Made by a program: the position numbers and the translations under genes
NCBI GenBank assembly: GCA_030697555.1
Contig: JAUYPV010000020.1
Coordinates: 1 to 36,799 of the forward strand
Direction: 5' to 3'
Origin: Hyphomonadaceae bacterium
GTDB lineage: Bacteria; Pseudomonadota; Alphaproteobacteria; Caulobacterales; Hyphomonadaceae
Length of the DNA stretch: 36,799 bases
Notes under the pieces: generated by a model
Databases searched by the model: none
The model's input: the letters and a program-made list of their open reading frames with translations, nothing else
What the model was told of the DNA's origin: nothing
Shown: positions 7,048 to 15,198 of the stretch, one piece after another
Layout: each line of letters opens with the position of its first letter
How positions within the stretch are numbered: the stretch's first letter is position 1

Positions 7048-8028
7048 TCACCCCGATAAATTCCGCACGCGCGTGTACAGCGACGCCAGCACCGGCGTTT
7101 CCGTTTCGCGCTCCAGCAGGTCTGCGACCGAGGCGCGGAACGCCGGAATGTCGGCGTCGTTCGCCTTGATCCCGGCCTTGAGAACTTTCGCCTTGCTGGA
7201 TTCCGAGAATGCTGCCCAGTTCTCGCGCATCACCGGCACCGAGCGCGCCGCCGCGTCGCGGATCAGCTCCTGGTCCGTCGTCGACATCGCAAGGAACCGC
7301 TCCTTCGACATCGTCAGGATTTCCGGCGAATAGCTGTGCCGCGTCTCAGACCAGTAGGTCGCCATCTCGTAATGGCTCGCCGATTCAAACGTCGGCCAGT
7401 TGTTCTCCGCGCCATCGATCAGGTGTGTCGACAGTGCCTGGAACACGCCGTTCACCGCCAGCGGCGTCGGGTTGGCTCCCATCACCGCAAAGGAGCGCAG
7501 GAACACATCCGACATGGGCGAGCGAATCTTGAGTCCCTTCAGGTCGCCCGGCTCAACGATCGGCTTGCGCACATTGTAAAAACACCGAGCACCCGCATCG
7601 TAGATCGCCAGCCCGATCAGCCCTACGCGATCGAACGCCGCGCGAATCTCCGCGCCTATATCGGAATCGACCGCCCGGTGCAGGTGCTCCATCGAATCGA
7701 TCGTGAACGGCAGGCACAGCACCCGCGTCTCGGGCACCAGATTGTTGACCGCCGCGAAATTCACCCGCGCGAAATCTACCGCGCCGAACCGCGCCAGCCC
7801 GATGGAATCGTCCTCCGCACCAAGCTGGCCCGAGGGATACTGTTTCAACCGCAGCCGCCCATCGGTTGCTTTCGTGAGTTCCGCGCCCATCCACTTCACA
7901 GCTTCGACGGTCGGATAGCCGGCGCGATGGACGTCCGCCTCGGTCAGCAAACCCGCTTCGCCTTTGGAACACGCTGCAAGGCCCGTCGCAGCCGCAAGCG
8001 TTGCAAGAGCTGCGCGGCGGGAAATCAT
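7048..8028 (-). CDS. dctP: TRAP transporter solute-binding protein, DctP family, lipoprotein-like
   Basis: The periplasmic binding protein that delivers an organic acid to the DctQM permease. The start at 8028 overlaps the upstream hydratase stop as ATGA. The N-terminus MISRRAALATLAAATGLAAC combines a twin-arginine pair with a lipobox (LAAC), so it is probably a membrane-anchored lipoprotein, possibly Tat-exported. Of 326 residues, the segment PGDLKGLKIRSPMSDVFL carries the conserved Arg that binds the carboxylate of the ligand in DctP proteins. AVNGVFQALSTHLIDGAENN is the other family signature. Beside pectate lyases, galacturonate or an unsaturated oligogalacturonide is the likely ligand (inference). 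Confidence 0.93.
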   Translation of the reverse strand: MISRRAALATLAAATGLAACSKGEAGLLTEADVHRAGYPTVEAVKWMGAELTKATDGRLRLKQYPSGQLGAEDDSIGLARFGAVDFARVNFAAVNNLVPETRVLCLPFTIDSMEHLHRAVDSDIGAEIRAAFDRVGLIGLAIYDAGARCFYNVRKPIVEPGDLKGLKIRSPMSDVFLRSFAVMGANPTPLAVNGVFQALSTHLIDGAENNWPTFESASHYEMATYWSETRHSYSPEILTMSKERFLAMSTTDQELIRDAAARSVPVMRENWAAFSESSKAKVLKAGIKANDADIPAFRASVADLLERETETPVLASLYTRVRNLSG

Positions 8029-8849
8029 TTCGCGCCCACAGCCTTGGCGCGCACGGCTCGGCACAGGATCTCGCCATCGCCACCAAAGCTCAGCGTGGCG
8101 CTCTGCCCGTCGACAATGTCGTGCACGCCCGTCACAGCGCCAGAGGACACATACTGCCCAGCCTTCAGCGGCCGGTTCCGTTCCGCCAGGTGCGCCAGCA
8201 GAAAACGCAGCCCGGCTATCGGCCCGCCCGGCAGGCCCATCACGGCGCCCTCGCCCACCGTCTTGCCTTCGATCTCCGTCTTCGCTCGCAGGTCCTTCAG
8301 CCGCGCGCGCCAGTCCTTCACCTCGCCGCCAAGGATCAGCCCGGCATTGTTGCCGAAGTCGGAGGCAACCACCGTCGGTCCCAGGTCATTGATGAAGCTC
8401 ATGGGCGAGCCCGCCGTCTCGACGCCGATATGCAGTGCGGCCACAAGAGCAGCAGCCTCATCGTCCGTCCAGTTCACCTTGCCTTCAGGCGCATCGCGCC
8501 CCATGCGGAAGACGTACTCTGCCTCCACCGCAGCGAAGCCGCCGTCGAACACTGGAAACTCCACCACGCCGCCCGACGCCTCGCGGACGCCGCGCAAAAA
8601 GATCGGCCCCGCCACGCGGTCCGATCCCAGCTTTTCCCGCAGAGGCGGCGGCACCAGCCCGATTTTCCATCCCGCAATCGTGTCGGGCCACAGATGGATC
8701 GCCATCTCCTGCACCAGGTAGCCCTGCTCCAGCGTCGCCGGTTGCACGCCCGGAAACGCCTGCAGCGACCGCGCATCCAGCCGCGCAGATACCAGCCGCG
8801 CGGCGATTTCCGGCGGCTTCGCATCGCTGCGCACTGCGGGCTGGGTCAT
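8025..8849 (-). CDS. 2-keto-4-pentenoate hydratase-like protein (FAH superfamily)
   Basis: Members add water to, or cleave, 2-keto-enoic acids using a Mg or Mn ion. In this 274-residue protein the metal ligands seem intact: an ExE pair in AAVEAEYVFRM and a further Glu in IGVETAGSP. GWKIGL and DFGNNAGLILGG are also typical of the MhpD/HpaH type. The ATG at 8849 is favoured over the in-frame GTG three codons earlier; neither has a good ribosome binding site. It is the first gene of the operon with the TRAP transporter and hydrolase. Classical pectin catabolism (KduI, KduD, KdgK or the oxidative uronate route) has no such enzyme, so it may handle an unsaturated keto-acid derived from lyase products. 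That role is inference. Confidence 0.85.
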   Translation of the reverse strand: MTQPAVRSDAKPPEIAARLVSARLDARSLQAFPGVQPATLEQGYLVQEMAIHLWPDTIAGWKIGLVPPPLREKLGSDRVAGPIFLRGVREASGGVVEFPVFDGGFAAVEAEYVFRMGRDAPEGKVNWTDDEAAALVAALHIGVETAGSPMSFINDLGPTVVASDFGNNAGLILGGEVKDWRARLKDLRAKTEIEGKTVGEGAVMGLPGGPIAGLRFLLAHLAERNRPLKAGQYVSSGAVTGVHDIVDGQSATLSFGGDGEILCRAVRAKAVGAK

Positions 8850-8926
8850 GGACGGCACAACGGACCAGCAAAAGCTTGCCGTCCGCTCCCTGAAACGATG
8901 AAATCAGGTGCTAGGTTGCGCGCGAA

Positions 8927-8940
8927 GGAAACCGGTGTCA
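8927..8940. promoter_or_regulatory. LacI-family-type operator in the lyase/TRAP divergent promoter region (site 3)
   Basis: GGAAACCGGTGTCA is base-for-base the same as site 2 at 359-372. It lies in the 138-bp gap between the divergently transcribed hydratase-TRAP operon and the pectate lyase pair, 48 bp before the lyase ATG, so one bound repressor could control both directions. Confidence 0.65.
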
Positions 8941-8987
8941 ATTCTAGTCTAAACAAACACCTGCGCAAAATGCAGGGGAGGAATCCG

Positions 8988-10379
8988 ATGCCAGGACAGA
9001 TGCTGGAAGGAGGGTCTTCACGACCGCTCTGGACCGCTGTTTCCGCGTTGCTTTTTGCCGCCTGCTCGGCCCTTCCCGACTCCCCGGTCCCATCGCCGCA
9101 GGCTGCCGAGGCGCCCTCCGGACCGCTAGCCTTCCCCGGCGCGCTCGGCTGGGCGGCGCAGACGAAAGGCGGCCGCGGCGGCGAGATCATTCGCGTCACA
9201 AATCTCGACGCGCAAGGCCCAGGCTCGTTACGCGCAGCAGTCGAAGCCAAAGGCCCGCGCATCATCGTGTTCGAAGTCGGCGGCGTCATAGATCTCGGCG
9301 CCAGGACGCTTACCGTGCGCGAACCTTTCGTGACAATCGCCGGCCAGACCGCACCCTCACCCGGCATTTCACTCATTCGCGGCGGCATGGACCTCGGCAC
9401 GCATGATGTCGTCGTTCAGCACATCCGTGTCCGTCCCGGCATGGCGGGTGGCTCCTACCGCAAGGGCCCAGACTTCGATTCCATCTCTACCCAGGGCGGC
9501 GCCTACAACATCATCGTCGACCATTGCTCACTCACCTGGGGCACGGACGAAAACCTCTCCGCCTCCGGCAACCGCTTCACCGGGCCCACTGTGAGGGAAT
9601 GGCGCGTCGGCGCATCGCACGACATCACCTTCTCCAACAACATCATCGCGGAAAGCCTCGCCGTCGCCACGCATGCGAAAGGCGAACACTCTAAAGGCTC
9701 GTTGATCCACGACAACGCGACGAACATCCTGATCGTCGGCAACCTCTACGCTCACAACATGGAGCGCAATCCGCTTTTCAAGGGCGGCGTCCACGGCACG
9801 GTCGTCAACAACCTGATCTATAATCCCGGCTGGAAGGCGCTGCACTACAACCTGATGGCCAACGAGTGGGCAGGCTACACACCGGTCAACGGCCAGATGA
9901 CGGCCGTGGGCAACGCGCTGCGCGGCGGCTTCGACACTGCTCCCGGCCTACCCTTCCTGATGATCGGCGGCATAGGCGATCTCGACTATTACGGCCGCGA
10001 CAACATCATGGTCGACAAATGGGGCGTGCCCCTGCCCGAGCTCGGCAGCTACGAAGCCGGCCCTGCAAAGATCATCCGCCACAACGCTCCGCTCGACTGG
10101 CCCGCGGGCCTGAAAGCGATGCCCGCAGCCGAGGTCGAAACCCATGTCCTCACGACCGCCGGCGCCAGACCCTGGGACCGCGACGCCCACGACGTGCGTT
10201 TGCTTGCCGACGTGGCGGAATCGCGCGGCGAAATCATCGACAACGAAACTGAAGTCGGCGGCTATCCCGTGCAAGCCACGACTCACCGCGCCTTTGACAC
10301 CTCGAAATGGAATCTCGACGACATGACGCCGAAGGACCCCTCCGTCCTCGACGCTTCGGCCAAAGCGAGGGGAACATGA
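8988..10379 (+). CDS. Pectate lyase-like right-handed parallel beta-helix lipoprotein
   Basis: A secreted enzyme expected to cleave polygalacturonate by beta-elimination. The ATG at 8988 has a strong GGGGAGGA site 5 nt upstream; the much longer open frame upstream is antisense to the hydratase. The 463-residue protein has a lipobox (LLFAAC) and a low-complexity Pro/Ala/Ser linker. The parallel beta-helix starts at LAFPGALGWAAQTKGGRGG, the standard opening of PL1-like bacterial pectate lyases. Family motifs follow: VTNLDAQGPGSLRAAV, VTIAGQTAPSPGISL, IIVDHCSLTWGTDENLSASG, and the late HAKGEHSKGSLIHDN and YAHNMERNPLFKGG. It is translationally coupled to a paralogue downstream. Activity on pectate rather than another uronan is inferred. 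Confidence 0.88.
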   Translation: MPGQMLEGGSSRPLWTAVSALLFAACSALPDSPVPSPQAAEAPSGPLAFPGALGWAAQTKGGRGGEIIRVTNLDAQGPGSLRAAVEAKGPRIIVFEVGGVIDLGARTLTVREPFVTIAGQTAPSPGISLIRGGMDLGTHDVVVQHIRVRPGMAGGSYRKGPDFDSISTQGGAYNIIVDHCSLTWGTDENLSASGNRFTGPTVREWRVGASHDITFSNNIIAESLAVATHAKGEHSKGSLIHDNATNILIVGNLYAHNMERNPLFKGGVHGTVVNNLIYNPGWKALHYNLMANEWAGYTPVNGQMTAVGNALRGGFDTAPGLPFLMIGGIGDLDYYGRDNIMVDKWGVPLPELGSYEAGPAKIIRHNAPLDWPAGLKAMPAAEVETHVLTTAGARPWDRDAHDVRLLADVAESRGEIIDNETEVGGYPVQATTHRAFDTSKWNLDDMTPKDPSVLDASAKARGT

Positions 10380-11629
10380 TCATCCGCCGCCGCACTCTAC
10401 TCGTGGGCGCCGCCGCGCTCGCATTGGCGCCACGCGCAAACCCCCAAGGGGTCGACGCCTTCACTGTCGGCGGCGCCGGCGGTCGCATCATCCGCGTCAT
10501 CACGCTGAGGCCGGACGGACCGGGTTCGATCACCGAGGCGATCAAGGCCAGGGGCAAGCGCATCGTCGTCTTCGAAGTCGGCGGTGTCATCGACCTCAAC
10601 ATGAAGACGCTGCGCATCGACGAACCCAACATCACCATCGCCGGCCAGACCGCGCCCGCGCCTGGCATCACTTTCATCCGCGGCGGCATCAGCCTGCGTG
10701 GGCCAGACGCCCTCATACAGCACATCGCCGTCCGCCCAGGCGAAGCGGGCCAGGCAAAAAAATCCGGCTGGGAGTGCGACGGCATCAGCGCCTACGCCGC
10801 CGACAGCATCGTGGTCGAGAACTGCTCGATCACCTGGGCCACCGACGAGGGCCTCTCCGCCTCCGGACCCCGGTTCGGCGTCGGCGAGAAAGGCGCAACC
10901 GCCGCTGACTGGCGTGACGGCACATCCTCAAACATCCTTTTCCGCCGCAACATCGTGGCCGAGGGCCTTTCCAACTCGACACATTCCAAAGGCGAGCATT
11001 CAAAAGGCTCACTATTCCACGACAACGTCCGCAACGCGGTGATCGAACAATCGCTCTACGCGCACAACATGGAGCGCAACATCCTGTTCAAGGGCGGCGC
11101 GCAGGGCGTGATGAACCGCTGCGTGGTTTACAATCCGGGAAAACGCTTCGCCCACTACAACCTGCACGAAAACGAGTGGGGTGATCACCCGTGGCAGCAA
11201 GGAGACCTCACGATCACCGGAAACATCTTCATGGCAGGTCCCTCGACCGACCCGAAGGCCGCCGCCTTCATGCTGGGCGGCGAAGGCGACCTTCGCCTCG
11301 CCATGGCGAACAACCACGCGGTCGACGCAAAGGGCGCCCGGCTTGCGGAATTCGGAACCTTCGGCTCGAAGAAGGCGAAGGTGGTCGATCGGCCCGACAT
11401 CACGCCTGTCGATCTAATCCCCGAGATGATCGACACGCTCGCGGCGTGCGGAGCGCGCCCGTGGGATCGTGACCCCATCGATGCCCGCATCGTCGCCGAC
11501 GTTAAGAACGGCACGGGCAAGATCATAGACTCGGAACAGGACGTCGGCGGCTATCCCGTCCGACCGGAAACCCGAGCAGCTTTCAAGGAAGTCGAATGGA
11601 ATCTCGAAACGATGGAACGCAAAGCCTAG
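10376..11629 (+). CDS. Second pectate lyase-like beta-helix protein, Tat-type signal
   Basis: A 417-residue paralogue of the preceding gene, starting inside its stop codon (ATGA at 10376-10379). The N-terminus MIIRRRTLLVGAAALALAP is a twin-arginine-type signal without a lipobox, so this copy is probably released folded into the periplasm, whereas the first is lipid-anchored. The core motifs are shared: VFEVGGVIDL, TIAGQTAPAPGITFIRGG, ENCSITWATDEGLSASG, HSKGEHSKGSLFHDN, YAHNMERNILFKGG and the C-terminal GARPWDRDPIDARI. The PGA.G opening seen in the first copy is shortened here. Two lyases of different location suggest stepwise depolymerisation outside and then inside the outer membrane (inference). 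It ends on a CTAG shared with the convergent MerR gene. Confidence 0.88.
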   Translation: MIIRRRTLLVGAAALALAPRANPQGVDAFTVGGAGGRIIRVITLRPDGPGSITEAIKARGKRIVVFEVGGVIDLNMKTLRIDEPNITIAGQTAPAPGITFIRGGISLRGPDALIQHIAVRPGEAGQAKKSGWECDGISAYAADSIVVENCSITWATDEGLSASGPRFGVGEKGATAADWRDGTSSNILFRRNIVAEGLSNSTHSKGEHSKGSLFHDNVRNAVIEQSLYAHNMERNILFKGGAQGVMNRCVVYNPGKRFAHYNLHENEWGDHPWQQGDLTITGNIFMAGPSTDPKAAAFMLGGEGDLRLAMANNHAVDAKGARLAEFGTFGSKKAKVVDRPDITPVDLIPEMIDTLAACGARPWDRDPIDARIVADVKNGTGKIIDSEQDVGGYPVRPETRAAFKEVEWNLETMERKA

Positions 11630-12396
11630 GCCTGCCTCGCCGCATGCGCCTTCATCGCCGTGGTGAGATAGTCGGTAAAGCCCGGCTCGATCGTCTCGTA
11701 CCGCTTCACGAAATCAGGATGCGACAGATAAAGGTCCGCCAGTCCTGAATATGCCTCCGCCGTGCACGGCCTATCCCACGCCGCCGCAACCCAGGCGCGA
11801 TGCCGCGCGATCATCCGCTCGACCGCATCCGACGCTGGGTCGACGCCTCGCCGCAACCCTTCCGCCAGCGCCTGCTCGACGTCGTGCAACTCCTGCATCG
11901 CCGCCTTCTGCTCGGCCTCGCTCATCTTCGCCATGGCCTTCTTCGTGCGGGCAATGTCGTCCTTCATGCGATCGCCATAGCGCTCGACCAGCCAGGCCTC
12001 GTATTCGTCCTGCTTCTCCGCCGAGAAGCCCTTGTAGAGATCCGCGTTCTTCATCTCGTCCTGTCCTTGCAAGCCAGCGATCGTGCGGTCGATCGTCTCG
12101 ATAAGGTCGGCATAGCGCCTGGCTTCGGCTTCGAGCTTCTCGCGATGGCGCAGCAGGAGACCGACCTGGTCCTCGCCGTCCAATTCGAGCAGCTCCGCGA
12201 TCTCGTTCAGAGGAATGCCGAACTCGCGGTGGAACAGGATCTGCTGCAGACGCAGAAGCTGTTCGCGCTCGTAGTACCGATAGCCGTTCTCGCCGACATA
12301 GGCAGGCTTCAGCAGGCCGATCTCGTCATAGTGGTGCAGCGTCCGGACGGTTACGCCCGAAATCGCCGCAAGCTGTTTGACTGTCAGGGCCTTCAT
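11626..12396 (-). CDS. MerR-family regulator with TipA-like effector domain
   Basis: A DNA-binding activator or repressor of 256 residues. The N-terminal MerR domain reads LTVKQLAAISGVTVRTLHHYDEIGLLKP then NGYRYYEREQL. A coiled-coil dimerisation helix follows (about residues 75-110). A C-terminal half of about 140 residues resembles the TipAS antibiotic-recognition domain (FSAEKQDEYEAWLVERYG, ...ARHRAWVAAAWD). The ATG at 12396 is where MerR homology starts. Upstream, an interrupted palindrome at 12443-12463 sits inside a 19-bp promoter spacer, the usual MerR arrangement, so autoregulation is likely. The ligand is unknown. Its end overlaps the second lyase through CTAG, but nothing ties it to pectin. 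Confidence 0.9.
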   Translation of the reverse strand: MKALTVKQLAAISGVTVRTLHHYDEIGLLKPAYVGENGYRYYEREQLLRLQQILFHREFGIPLNEIAELLELDGEDQVGLLLRHREKLEAEARRYADLIETIDRTIAGLQGQDEMKNADLYKGFSAEKQDEYEAWLVERYGDRMKDDIARTKKAMAKMSEAEQKAAMQELHDVEQALAEGLRRGVDPASDAVERMIARHRAWVAAAWDRPCTAEAYSGLADLYLSHPDFVKRYETIEPGFTDYLTTAMKAHAARQA

Positions 12397-12435
12397 GTCG
12401 CCAGTCTTTCTTCCATGCCTTTCCGCAGGACACGG

Positions 12436-12466
12436 GTCTTGCACCCTCACGAGGCGTGAGGGTCAA
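12436..12466 (-). promoter_or_regulatory. MerR-type promoter and operator
   Basis: On the minus strand, TTGACC (12461-12466) is followed by a 19-bp spacer and a poor -10 (CAAGAC). The perfect inverted repeat ACCCTCACG-AGG-CGTGAGGGT (12443-12463) fills the spacer. An over-long spacer holding a palindrome is the hallmark of MerR-activated promoters. It lies 40 bp before the MerR start. Confidence 0.65.
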
Positions 12467-12496
12467 CAGGCGACTACAGAATTTTCTAGAAGGCCG

Positions 12497-12853
12497 TCAG
12501 GCGTAAGCCGAGATCGAGCGCACCACCTTGCCATCCTTCCCGAACACGAACGTCTCCGCCACATATTGCGAGCGCTCGTTGGTATAGAGGATGGTCAGCG
12601 CATCCGACCCCGGCAGCACCTGATCGATCTCGAAGAAAAGGTCGCGTAGCCGGCTCAGAGCCGTGCCCCAGTACGCTCGCAGCTCCGCCTTGCCGCTCAC
12701 GCTGTCCAGCTCGCGCCCCGTCACCATCCGGATGCGCGGAGAGTGGAACACCACATCCTCTGCATAGTGCGACAGGATCGCTTCGAGATCATGGTCATTC
12801 CACGCCTTCACCCAGTCGCGGGCAAAGTCTCTCGCAAATTCAGCATCAATCAT
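12497..12853 (-). CDS. NTF2-like / SnoaL-like domain protein
   Basis: A small 118-residue protein of the cone-shaped NTF2-like fold. It begins with helices rich in aromatic and acidic residues (FARDWVKAWNDHDLEAILSH), then YAEDVVFHSPR, and ends in strands such as VAETFVFGKDGKVV, the usual SnoaL/NTF2 order. It has no signal peptide, so it is cytoplasmic. Its ATG overlaps the stop of the caspase-family gene (ATGA), so the two are translated together. NTF2-like domains bind small hydrophobic ligands or act as isomerases; the specific function is unknown. Confidence 0.82.
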   Translation of the reverse strand: MIDAEFARDFARDWVKAWNDHDLEAILSHYAEDVVFHSPRIRMVTGRELDSVSGKAELRAYWGTALSRLRDLFFEIDQVLPGSDALTILYTNERSQYVAETFVFGKDGKVVRSISAYA

Positions 12854-13575
12854 TTGAGAAACGGATCATCCCTGCAGCTGGCGTAGAGAACAAGATTCAC
12901 GCTCCGCGCCTGCCCTGCTTTGCCGATCTCGTCCAGCGAGATCGCATGCGTAGGCAGCCACTTCTCATCCTGTTCCGGATAATCCCCCATCATCCAGTAG
13001 ACCAGTCGCTTGTGCTGGATGCCGTGCCCGCCGACATAGATCAGTGATGCATCCGCGTCCGCAGACTTCGCCGAAAACTCCGTGATCGCCTTGCGCGCCG
13101 CAGCCGCGTCATTGTCCAGCACCAGCATCGTCTCGAACCCCGCCGCCTTCAGCGCCTCGGGTACGCGCCTGGCGTCCAACGCCGCGCCCGGCAGCGAATA
13201 GACGCCTGCCGATTTCGAATAGTCGGCGTTGATCAGGATCAGCGCCACGCGCTTCTTGCTTGGATCGTCCAGCCTCCAAAAAGGAAGCTTCTTGGGAAAC
13301 TGCATCTGTTGCCAGCCGCCGCTGTGCCGCGCATTCGCCGCCGACAACAGCGCCGTGAAATCCACCAGCGTCCGCGGCTCCCGCTTCAGCACCTCGACCA
13401 GCGCACTCGCAAACGGATTGCCGCCCAGCGCATCGCGATCCTGCGTCAGCCGCCCCGGCTGTCCGGCATAGTACATCAGCGGGCCGGTCGGCGCATTTGC
13501 CGAAGGCGATGTCTGCGCCGAAGCGCCGGCAATCGCCGCCGCCGCCAGCACACACAAGAGAAGCCGCCGGATCAT
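12850..13575 (-). CDS. Exported caspase-family (C14-like) protein with apparently permuted domain order
   Basis: A 241-residue protein with a clear Sec signal peptide (MIRRLLLCVLAAAAIAGASA). The C-terminal ~135 residues look like a caspase p20 unit: KKRVALILINADY, SLPGAALDARRVPEALKAAG, catalytic His184 in IYVGGHGIQ, and catalytic Cys234 in LYASCRDDP. The protein stops seven residues after that Cys, where caspases normally continue into the p10 half. The stretch after the signal peptide (about residues 32-100: LMYYAGQPGR, GGNPFASALVEVLK, HSGGWQQMQFP) instead resembles the p10 end of bacterial caspases (AYATAPG..., NSPFA.AL, TGG.Q.P). It may thus be a circularly permuted orthocaspase. A hairpin abuts the start codon, and the gene is coupled to the NTF2-like gene. 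Substrates are unknown. Confidence 0.8.
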   Translation of the reverse strand: MIRRLLLCVLAAAAIAGASAQTSPSANAPTGPLMYYAGQPGRLTQDRDALGGNPFASALVEVLKREPRTLVDFTALLSAANARHSGGWQQMQFPKKLPFWRLDDPSKKRVALILINADYSKSAGVYSLPGAALDARRVPEALKAAGFETMLVLDNDAAAARKAITEFSAKSADADASLIYVGGHGIQHKRLVYWMMGDYPEQDEKWLPTHAISLDEIGKAGQARSVNLVLYASCRDDPFLK

Positions 13576-13598
13576 GCGGCGCAGACTAGCTGCGCCGC
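13576..13598 (-). promoter_or_regulatory. Hairpin abutting the start codon of the caspase-family gene
   Basis: GCGGCGCAG and CTGCGCCGC form a perfect 9-bp stem with a 5-nt loop. Its last base is next to the ATG at 13575, exactly where a ribosome binding site should be. It lies in the 39-bp gap after serA and has no T-run, so it could limit translation or mark an RNA end. Confidence 0.5.
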
Positions 13599-13614
13599 CG
13601 GACCGAGGCCAGAC

Positions 13615-15198
13615 CTAGAACTTCAGCACCTTCACATACCGCACCTGCGGCAGCGCCTGGATCGCATCCAGCGTATTCGCCGGTACATCCTGGTCGACGC
13701 CGACGATGGCGATCGCGTCGCCGCCCGCTGCCTCACGGCCCAGATTGAACGTCGCGATGTTCACCTTCGCCTCGCCCAGCAGGCCCGCCATGGCGCCGAT
13801 GAAGCCCGGCTTGTCCGAGTTGTTGACGAACAGCATGTAGGGCTGGAAATCGGCCTCCAGCTTCATGCCCTTCACCTCGACGATGCGCGGCTGGCCGCCC
13901 ACGATGGCGCCGGCGACCGAGCGCCACTTGCCTTCCACCTTCACCTTGATGCGGATCAGGCTGTCATAGATCGGGCTGGCGTCGCTCTTGGATTCCTTCA
14001 GCGAGCCGCCGCGCTCCTGCAGGATGGCCGGCGCCGAGACCATGTTCACTTCGGCAAGGAACGGACGCAGCAGGCCCGCCAGCGCCGCCGACGTCAGCGG
14101 CTTGCGGTTGATCTGCGCCACATGGCCCTCGTACTCAATCTCGACTTCCGACAGCCCGCCGTCGGCAACCTGCCCCGCAAACTGCCCCAGCTTCTCGGCC
14201 AGCGCCACGAACGGCTTCAGGCGCGGAGCTTCCTCCGCCGTCACGCTCGGCATGTTGAGCGCGTTGGTCACCGCGCCCGTCAGCAAGTAATCCGCCATCT
14301 GCTCGGCCACCTGGAACGCTACATTGTCCTGCGCCTCCACGGTCGAGGCGCCCAGGTGCGGCGTCGCAATAAAATTCTTCGCGCCGAACAGCACGTTGGT
14401 CTTCGCCGGCTCCTCGCCGAACACGTCGAACGCCGCGGCCCCGATATGGCCGCTGTCCAGCGCCGCCCGCACCGCCGCCTCGTCGGCAAGACCGCCGCGC
14501 GCGCAGTTGACCAGGATCACGCCCGGCTTCATCTTGGCGATGTTCTCCTTCGACAGGATGTTCTTCGTCTGGTCGGTCAGCGGCGTGTGCAGCGTGATGA
14601 TGTCCGCCCGCGCCAGAAGCTCGTCGAGCTCCACTTTCTCGACGCCGATCTGCATCGCCCGCTCGGCCGACAGGAAGGGATCGTACGCGACCACCTTCAT
14701 TTTCAGGCCCAGCGCCCGGTCAGCCACGATCGAGCCGATATTCCCGGCGCCGATCAGGCCCAGCGTCTTCGCGAACAGCTCGATGCCGATGTAATCCTTC
14801 TTCGGCCACTCGCCGGCCTGTGTGCGCGAGGAGGCGGACGGAATCTGCCGCGCCGCCGCGAACATCATGGCGATGGCGTGCTCCGCGGTCGTGATAGCGT
14901 TGCCGAACGGCGTGTTCATCACCACGACCCCCTTGGCCGTCGCCGCCTTCACGTCGACATTGTCGACGCCGATGCCCGCGCGCCCGATCACCTTCAGCTT
15001 CGTCCCCGCCGCGATCACATCCTTGTCCGGCTTGCACGCCGAGCGCACGGCAAGGCCGTCATACTGGCCGATGATCTTGATCAGCTCGTCCTTCTTGAGC
15101 CCGACCTTGAAATCCACCTCGATCCCGCGATTGCGGAAGATGTCAGCGGCGCCCGGCGCGAGATCGTCGGCGATAAGAACTTTCACCTTGTTGGTCAT
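13615..15198 (-). CDS. serA: D-3-phosphoglycerate dehydrogenase
   Basis: Catalyses the first step of serine synthesis, oxidising 3-phosphoglycerate to phosphohydroxypyruvate with NAD. The 527 residues match the long form of the enzyme. The substrate-binding and NAD domains carry GRAGIGVDNVD and the Rossmann loop LGLIGAGNIGS. Catalytic residues are Arg in NCARGGL, Glu in FDVFGEEP and His in TPHLGAST. An intervening ASB domain follows, and a C-terminal ACT domain (LFVNNSDKPGFIGAMAGLLG, ...VGVDQD) gives feedback control by serine. It is the last gene of the serC operon, 6 nt after the GNAT gene, whose 3' end supplies the AGGAG site. Confidence 0.97.
   Translation of the reverse strand: MTNKVKVLIADDLAPGAADIFRNRGIEVDFKVGLKKDELIKIIGQYDGLAVRSACKPDKDVIAAGTKLKVIGRAGIGVDNVDVKAATAKGVVVMNTPFGNAITTAEHAIAMMFAAARQIPSASSRTQAGEWPKKDYIGIELFAKTLGLIGAGNIGSIVADRALGLKMKVVAYDPFLSAERAMQIGVEKVELDELLARADIITLHTPLTDQTKNILSKENIAKMKPGVILVNCARGGLADEAAVRAALDSGHIGAAAFDVFGEEPAKTNVLFGAKNFIATPHLGASTVEAQDNVAFQVAEQMADYLLTGAVTNALNMPSVTAEEAPRLKPFVALAEKLGQFAGQVADGGLSEVEIEYEGHVAQINRKPLTSAALAGLLRPFLAEVNMVSAPAILQERGGSLKESKSDASPIYDSLIRIKVKVEGKWRSVAGAIVGGQPRIVEVKGMKLEADFQPYMLFVNNSDKPGFIGAMAGLLGEAKVNIATFNLGREAAGGDAIAIVGVDQDVPANTLDAIQALPQVRYVKVLKF

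Follow-up and report, generated by a model that had tools for sequence, protein, structure and literature searches.

A natural circularly permuted caspase-fold protein, with its p10-like part ahead of p20, in a Hyphomonadaceae bacterium and its relatives

The window, meaning the whole stretch of 36,799 nucleotides that was analysed, comes from a contig of a Hyphomonadaceae bacterium. It carries an ATG-initiated open reading frame for a 241-residue caspase-fold protein, flanked by a SnoaL_2/NTF2-like gene and serA (Table 1). Along the chain, a leader (MIRRLLLCVLAAAAIAGASA-Q) is followed by a p10-like part, a short loop at about residues 96-106, a p20 part and the stop codon. This means that the two parts of the caspase fold stand in swapped order.

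Table 1. Features of the caspase locus (window coordinates)
Feature	Position	Strand	Basis
Circularly permuted caspase-fold protein, 241 aa	12850..13575	-	ORF; Pfam C14; swapped-order profile matches; structure model
Signal-peptide-like leader, residues 1-25 (MIRR, hydrophobic core, ASA-Q)	13501..13575	-	Sequence reading; low pLDDT; weak TAT_signal matches
p10-like part, residues 32-95 (strand 33-36, helices 54-64 and 70-85)	13291..13482	-	p10 profile and shuffles; hhalign; model
p20 part, residues 107-239, with His184 and Cys234	12859..13257	-	p20 profile; invariant dyad
SnoaL_2/NTF2-like gene	12497..12853	-	Pfam PF12680, E 1.5e-15; 4-base overlap (ATGA) with caspase stop
serA (phosphoglycerate dehydrogenase), upstream neighbour	13615..15198	-	Pfam 2-Hacid_dh, PGDH_inter, ACT

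The NTF2-like gene that an earlier, sequence-only reading had placed directly after the caspase stop is borne out by its Pfam match, and the overlap of the two genes suggests co-translation. Among the regions of 14 relatives, serA lies upstream within about 200 bases in 11, and the contig ends there in one more. SnoaL_2 lies downstream within about 75 bases in 11 of the 14 and about 950 bases away in one; at two loci (L077 and L078) neither gene adjoins the caspase. These are metabolic genes, from which no clear function for the caspase follows.

By profile match and its predicted catalytic His and Cys, the protein is a member of peptidase family C14. Pfam PF00656 matches it in two stretches (E 2.4e-13, 50.7 bits, cut-off 21.4), the better of which aligns residues 108-218 with profile positions 1-112, and it matches all 15 members of the family described below (searched up to E 10, best 3.3e-16). 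A p20 profile scores 86.6 bits over residues 107-239, within which His184 lies in a GGHG motif. Other matches were weaker: the NCBIfam model caspase_w_EACC1 stayed far under its cut-off (25.1 vs 140), and a sequence search of solved structures gave as its best match an ancestral caspase (E 0.0069, residues 107-197). Pfam CHAT, another caspase-like domain, was also matched in two of the 15 family members.

The swapped order is seen with several profiles. An ordinary-order profile was built from 15 relatives (L017-L031) that had been picked through their p20 match and not for p10. It matches each of the 15 permuted proteins twice, with the N-terminal part falling on the profile end and the C-terminal part on the profile beginning. 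When ordinary-order relatives are used to build a p10 profile, the N-terminal segment of the 241-residue protein reaches 15.6 bits, compared to a best of 4.8 bits in 400 shuffles. Across the 15 members the p10 parts by themselves score 5.1 to 25.3 bits, and in 14 of the 15 this exceeds all 400 of the protein's own shuffles; the exception is L012 (5.1 vs 6.3 bits, 400 shuffles). Of all stop-to-stop frames in the window with 50 residues or more (395), the caspase frame is the best p10 match, with 12.6 bits against 4.1 for the next. In addition, hhalign aligns the two segments with separate regions of the ordinary domain, the N-terminal one with columns 151-227 (E 8.6e-9) and the C-terminal one with columns 3-134 (E 1.3e-27), each E value referring to a single comparison.

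At loci L001-L089, which give 49 distinct p20 sequences, p10 precedes p20 in 15 and follows it in 34. The room left beyond the end of the p20 profile is 1-4 residues in all 15 permuted proteins and at least 104 residues in all 34 ordinary relatives. Odd search hits (partial match, internal stop or short frame) yielded no further permuted member: p10 follows p20 in six of six such loci (L106-L111) and in eight of eight others (L090-L097), L096 being the same place as L108; the remaining odd hits were judged solely by where the match starts, among the matches listed. The sequence-only reading had held that Cys234 lies seven residues from the C-terminus, that the p10 half is absent behind it, that a p10-like stretch stands ahead of p20, and that this motif order points to a circular permutation. 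All of these points stood. Moreover, no homologue with an ordinary p10 half after the Cys, which would speak against permutation, was found among the 15 full-length proteins.

Structure prediction, which the same reading had proposed as a check, agrees. An AlphaFold2 model from the alignment of the 15 permuted proteins (A1) has a mean pLDDT of 88.6 and a pTM of 0.85. The case in which residues 30-105 fail to resemble p10 beside the p20 core did not arise, since the model gives residues 31-100 block pLDDT values of 94-98 and shows them as a strand-helix-helix unit like the p10 part of an ordinary-order control. That control (alignment A2, mean pLDDT 87.6) ends in a strand at 162-165, helices at 182-190 and 198-212 and a strand at 220-222; these final elements correspond in the models to the opening strand and two helices of the permuted protein. 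The control has an extra helix, 134-142, in the linker region.

When the permuted model was compared with the PDB by Foldseek, ranks 1-4 went to an engineered permuted caspase-2, JF1cpCasp2 (9c2y, 8vp4), with E 4.1e-10 to 1.6e-8 and TMq 0.68-0.69 over 243-259 columns, which amounts to a full-length match. Ranks 5-50 (MALT1 and caspases) reached TMq 0.41-0.49 over 132-181 columns among the best 50 of 1233 matches, and several of these chains are roughly as long as a large subunit by itself. For the ordinary control, ranks 1-32 are ordinary-order MALT1 (234-248 columns), and cpCasp2 is absent from its best 50 of 1453 matches. The caspase fold in the 241-residue protein is thus almost certainly permuted by nature. 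The likeness to cpCasp2 extends to the small-subunit part standing first and the termini lying at the old intersubunit junction. The two proteins differ in that cpCasp2 is man-made from human caspase-2, with 13-14% identity to the bacterial protein, whereas the latter is natural and has a leader and another S1 pocket.

The permuted proteins form a narrowly distributed family. When 398 genomes of the order were searched with the protein, 59 gave a match at E 1e-5; the match was near full length in 15 (own genome included), and the other matches listed began at residue 76 or later. A profile search with A1 of the Hyphomonadaceae sample (105 genomes) found full-length matches in 14; the genus accounts for 12, in the 15 of its genomes listed, and two other genera of the family for one each. 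In the order sample the same profile gave 15 of 398, the additional genome, G122, being of another family. Among the matches listed for wider samples, of the class at E 1e-25 (385 genomes) and of the phylum at E 1e-15 (398 genomes), the sole full-length one was in the own genome. At most seven candidates were scored per genome in the order, class and phylum samples, so that diverged members can have escaped. Three contigs carrying a relative belong to metagenome assemblies labelled Alphaproteobacteria or Hyphomonadaceae and are probably the same records as sampled ones. The homologue search that the sequence-only reading had called for thus yielded 14 homologues in other genomes, all with p10 ahead of p20.

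In a tree of p20 alone, the 15 permuted proteins lie on one side of a branch with support of 100/99, opposite the 34 others, and a tree with two further sequences again sets them apart. These trees carry a long-branch warning (L016 among the branches concerned), and the 34 others had been chosen by similarity to the query. Both halves of the protein are under purifying selection, with dN/dS no higher than 0.41 in either half (p10 part 0.03-0.40, p20 part 0.10-0.24; seven overlapping pairs, 10 of the 15 genes). The same bacterial order also has ordinary-order caspases, and one genome, G122, carries a permuted caspase (L016) together with at least five ordinary-order ones (L084, L086-L089). A donor or sister caspase was sought in the own genome and none was found at these settings; the sole other match up to E 10 has E 0.47 and four internal stops. 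Carriage by phages or plasmids was likewise rejected: there was no relative among 36 pattern matches in IMG/VR, and none of 162 matched plasmid records covers 80% of the query.

A leader is visible by eye in all 15 permuted proteins. A loose twin-arginine test (RR, any residue, then F, I, V, L or M within the first 15 residues) is passed by 12 of the 15 leaders, and Pfam TAT_signal gives weak matches in three of 15 (best E 0.0035). The protein is probably sent to the periplasm by Sec or Tat, judging from these leaders. If the twin-arginine motif means Tat export, folding would precede export.

The reading that we favour, with a probability of roughly 0.55, is that the protein is an exported, permuted caspase-fold cysteine protease that works as a single chain and needs no linker cut; its activity is a prediction. 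The state of the active site bears on this directly. His184, Cys234 and the S1 residue Asp134 are invariant in all 15 permuted proteins. The position two residues before the catalytic Cys (Cys-2) is Asp in all 34 ordinary relatives and Ala, Gly or Ser in all 15 permuted ones, where a Tyr or Trp immediately precedes it. We take Asp134 to correspond to Asp95 of TbMC2, and Cys-2 to Asp211, having matched them by hhalign, by the distance from the Cys and by the TbMC2 numbering. For TbMC2, a survey describes these two Asp residues as highly important for basic residues (PMC6426788). Two acidic S1 residues are the mark of an orthocaspase or type I metacaspase that takes a basic P1; here one is kept and one is lost in every member, and the family may therefore prefer a P1 residue other than the Arg or Lys of known orthocaspases.

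The loss of this second Asp, together with the long branch to ordinary relatives, could also mean that the permuted fold is no longer a protease and binds peptides or a partner instead. We consider such a pseudoprotease unlikely, if deserving of serious weight, because the dyad and Asp134 are retained throughout the family. Published bacterial pseudo-orthocaspases show the opposite pattern, in which the dyad is lost and both Asp are retained (PMC6426788).

For the favoured protease, the position of the break in the fold suggests a route to activity. In the 15 ordinary relatives measured, a linker of 19-31 residues, with an Arg or Lys in each, separates p20 from p10. The permuted family has no such linker, and the chain ends occupy its place. 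The short loop before p20 would connect what were once the N- and C-termini of the fold, and the new termini would sit where the linker lies in ordinary relatives. After export by the leader and its removal, the mature chain would start a few residues ahead of the first p10 strand and stop two residues past CRDDPF. Such a chain would already possess the free ends that a linker cut gives to animal caspases and type II metacaspases, and so should be competent without an intersubunit cut.

Engineered cpCasp2 offers the closest precedent. It is reported to be constitutively active as a single chain and to reach the active state uncut because the end of the small subunit lies near the start of the large one; of the permuted caspases made before it, all but one still cut themselves at the intersubunit linker (PMC7760212). 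In the bacterial protein the break falls at that same junction, and nothing of the linker is left. In a review, animal caspases and type II metacaspases are said to require a linker cut for activation, type I metacaspases never to autoprocess between p20 and p10, and metacaspases in general not to activate by dimerisation (PMC5756287). It is the statement on type I metacaspases that lowered our estimate of a cleavage-free mechanism, which is offered tentatively and at somewhat less than even odds. A fuller proposal, on balance unlikely, is that permutation freed a secreted caspase from cleavage, so that export and leader removal would switch it on, with a rebuilt S1 pocket giving it a new cleavage specificity; nature would then have arrived independently at the equivalent of the engineers' zymogen-free caspase.

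The same statement on type I metacaspases favours a different account of the permuted protease, in which its activation has nothing to do with the permutation. If ordinary bacterial relatives are also uncut, the permutation would be without effect on activation, and control might lie with calcium, a partner or expression. The p10-first enzymes of algae are indeed calcium-regulated, as two papers report (PMC8455989, PMC5756287): PtMCA-IIIc of a diatom autoprocesses, needs calcium and cleaves at Arg (PMC8455989), and GtMC2 requires calcium-dependent removal of an N-terminal domain (PMC5756287). Since both are regulated, cleavage-free activity of the bacterial protein stays a proposal. The account is nevertheless improbable in our view, as the break falls in the linker, and the basic residue in each of the 15 measured linkers is a putative cut site.

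It is also conceivable that two chains form a domain-swapped dimer, the N-terminal p10 part of each lying against the p20 part of its partner. Caspases dimerise via the p10 side, and the loop between the two parts is short. This arrangement is quite improbable, because the single-chain AlphaFold2 model closes the fold confidently and matches single chains of cpCasp2.

The arrangement is not new in kind, since it is known from the type III metacaspases of algae and from engineered reversed caspases, which Srinivasula reportedly made in 1998. For bacteria it is new within the literature searched. A 2019 survey that covered 11,208 caspase homologues from prokaryotes reports no protein with p10 before p20, and may have overlooked such cases through its p10 cut-off of 30 bits (PMC6426788). 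The p10 scores of the 15 permuted members run from 1.8 to 25.3 bits with the profile built here, which is not that of the survey. No bacterial case was found in the open-access literature searched, including the available parts of PMC8195603, PMC7760212, PMC8580257, PMC8455989, PMC6426788 and PMC5756287. Bacterial orthocaspases and type I metacaspases (C14B) share the p20 homology and the dyad with the permuted family, and differ from it by the p10-like part after the Cys and by the linker. A conserved bacterial clade thus exists where the survey reported none. It is a compact natural test of the role of the intersubunit linker, and possibly supplies a single-chain protease of novel specificity.

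Beside the algal enzymes, the clade provides a second case for asking how often the caspase fold has been permuted. A p10 part that ends before p20 begins, present in 15 of 15, and a His-Cys dyad are shared with type III metacaspases (PMC6426788, PMC8455989), so that one ancient permutation, or a transfer, might connect the two. Such kinship has little probability. Type III metacaspases belong to algae of secondary endosymbiosis, whereas the relatives found here are Alphaproteobacteria; the diatom p10 pattern [QE]TSAD, given in PMC8455989, occurs in none of the 15; and so narrow a spread, within one bacterial order, suggests that the permutation arose locally. Finally, a frameshifted ordinary gene, which the sequence-only reading had already thought unlikely, can be dismissed along with a broken gene or an assembly error, as the same order and a similar length recur in 15 genomes, a six-frame p10 search of 11400-13700 finds nothing above 0 bits apart from the caspase frame, and both halves are under selection.

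Elsewhere in the family, one locus (L106:888-2588; G031:C15, about 35387-37087) encodes, in a single frame of 566 residues, two caspase units in tandem, in the order p20-p10-p20-p10. In its second unit GYG replaces GHG, putting Tyr in place of the catalytic His, so that an intact and an inactive caspase appear to be combined in one chain. As a tandem-duplication ancestor of the permuted clade this locus was rejected, given the missing His and a placement outside the permuted clade, on very long branches. It indicates that an intermediate of the expected kind can occur, and is not evidence of ancestry.

Some further observations concern the surroundings of the gene. In G319, a genome of the same genus, serA and SnoaL_2 lie about 20 bases apart with no caspase gene between them (L112:1183-3135), a state that represents either loss or the condition before gain. 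Beyond SnoaL_2 in the window, a MerR-family regulator with a TipAS antibiotic-recognition domain is encoded at 11626-12450 (-), and it is found nearby in six of the 14 relatives' regions. Next to it, at 8001-11629 (+), lie genes for two adjoining proteins that look alike by eye; a Pfam scan of the second gave a weak Beta_helix match under the cut-off, and both are presumably pectate-lyase-like.
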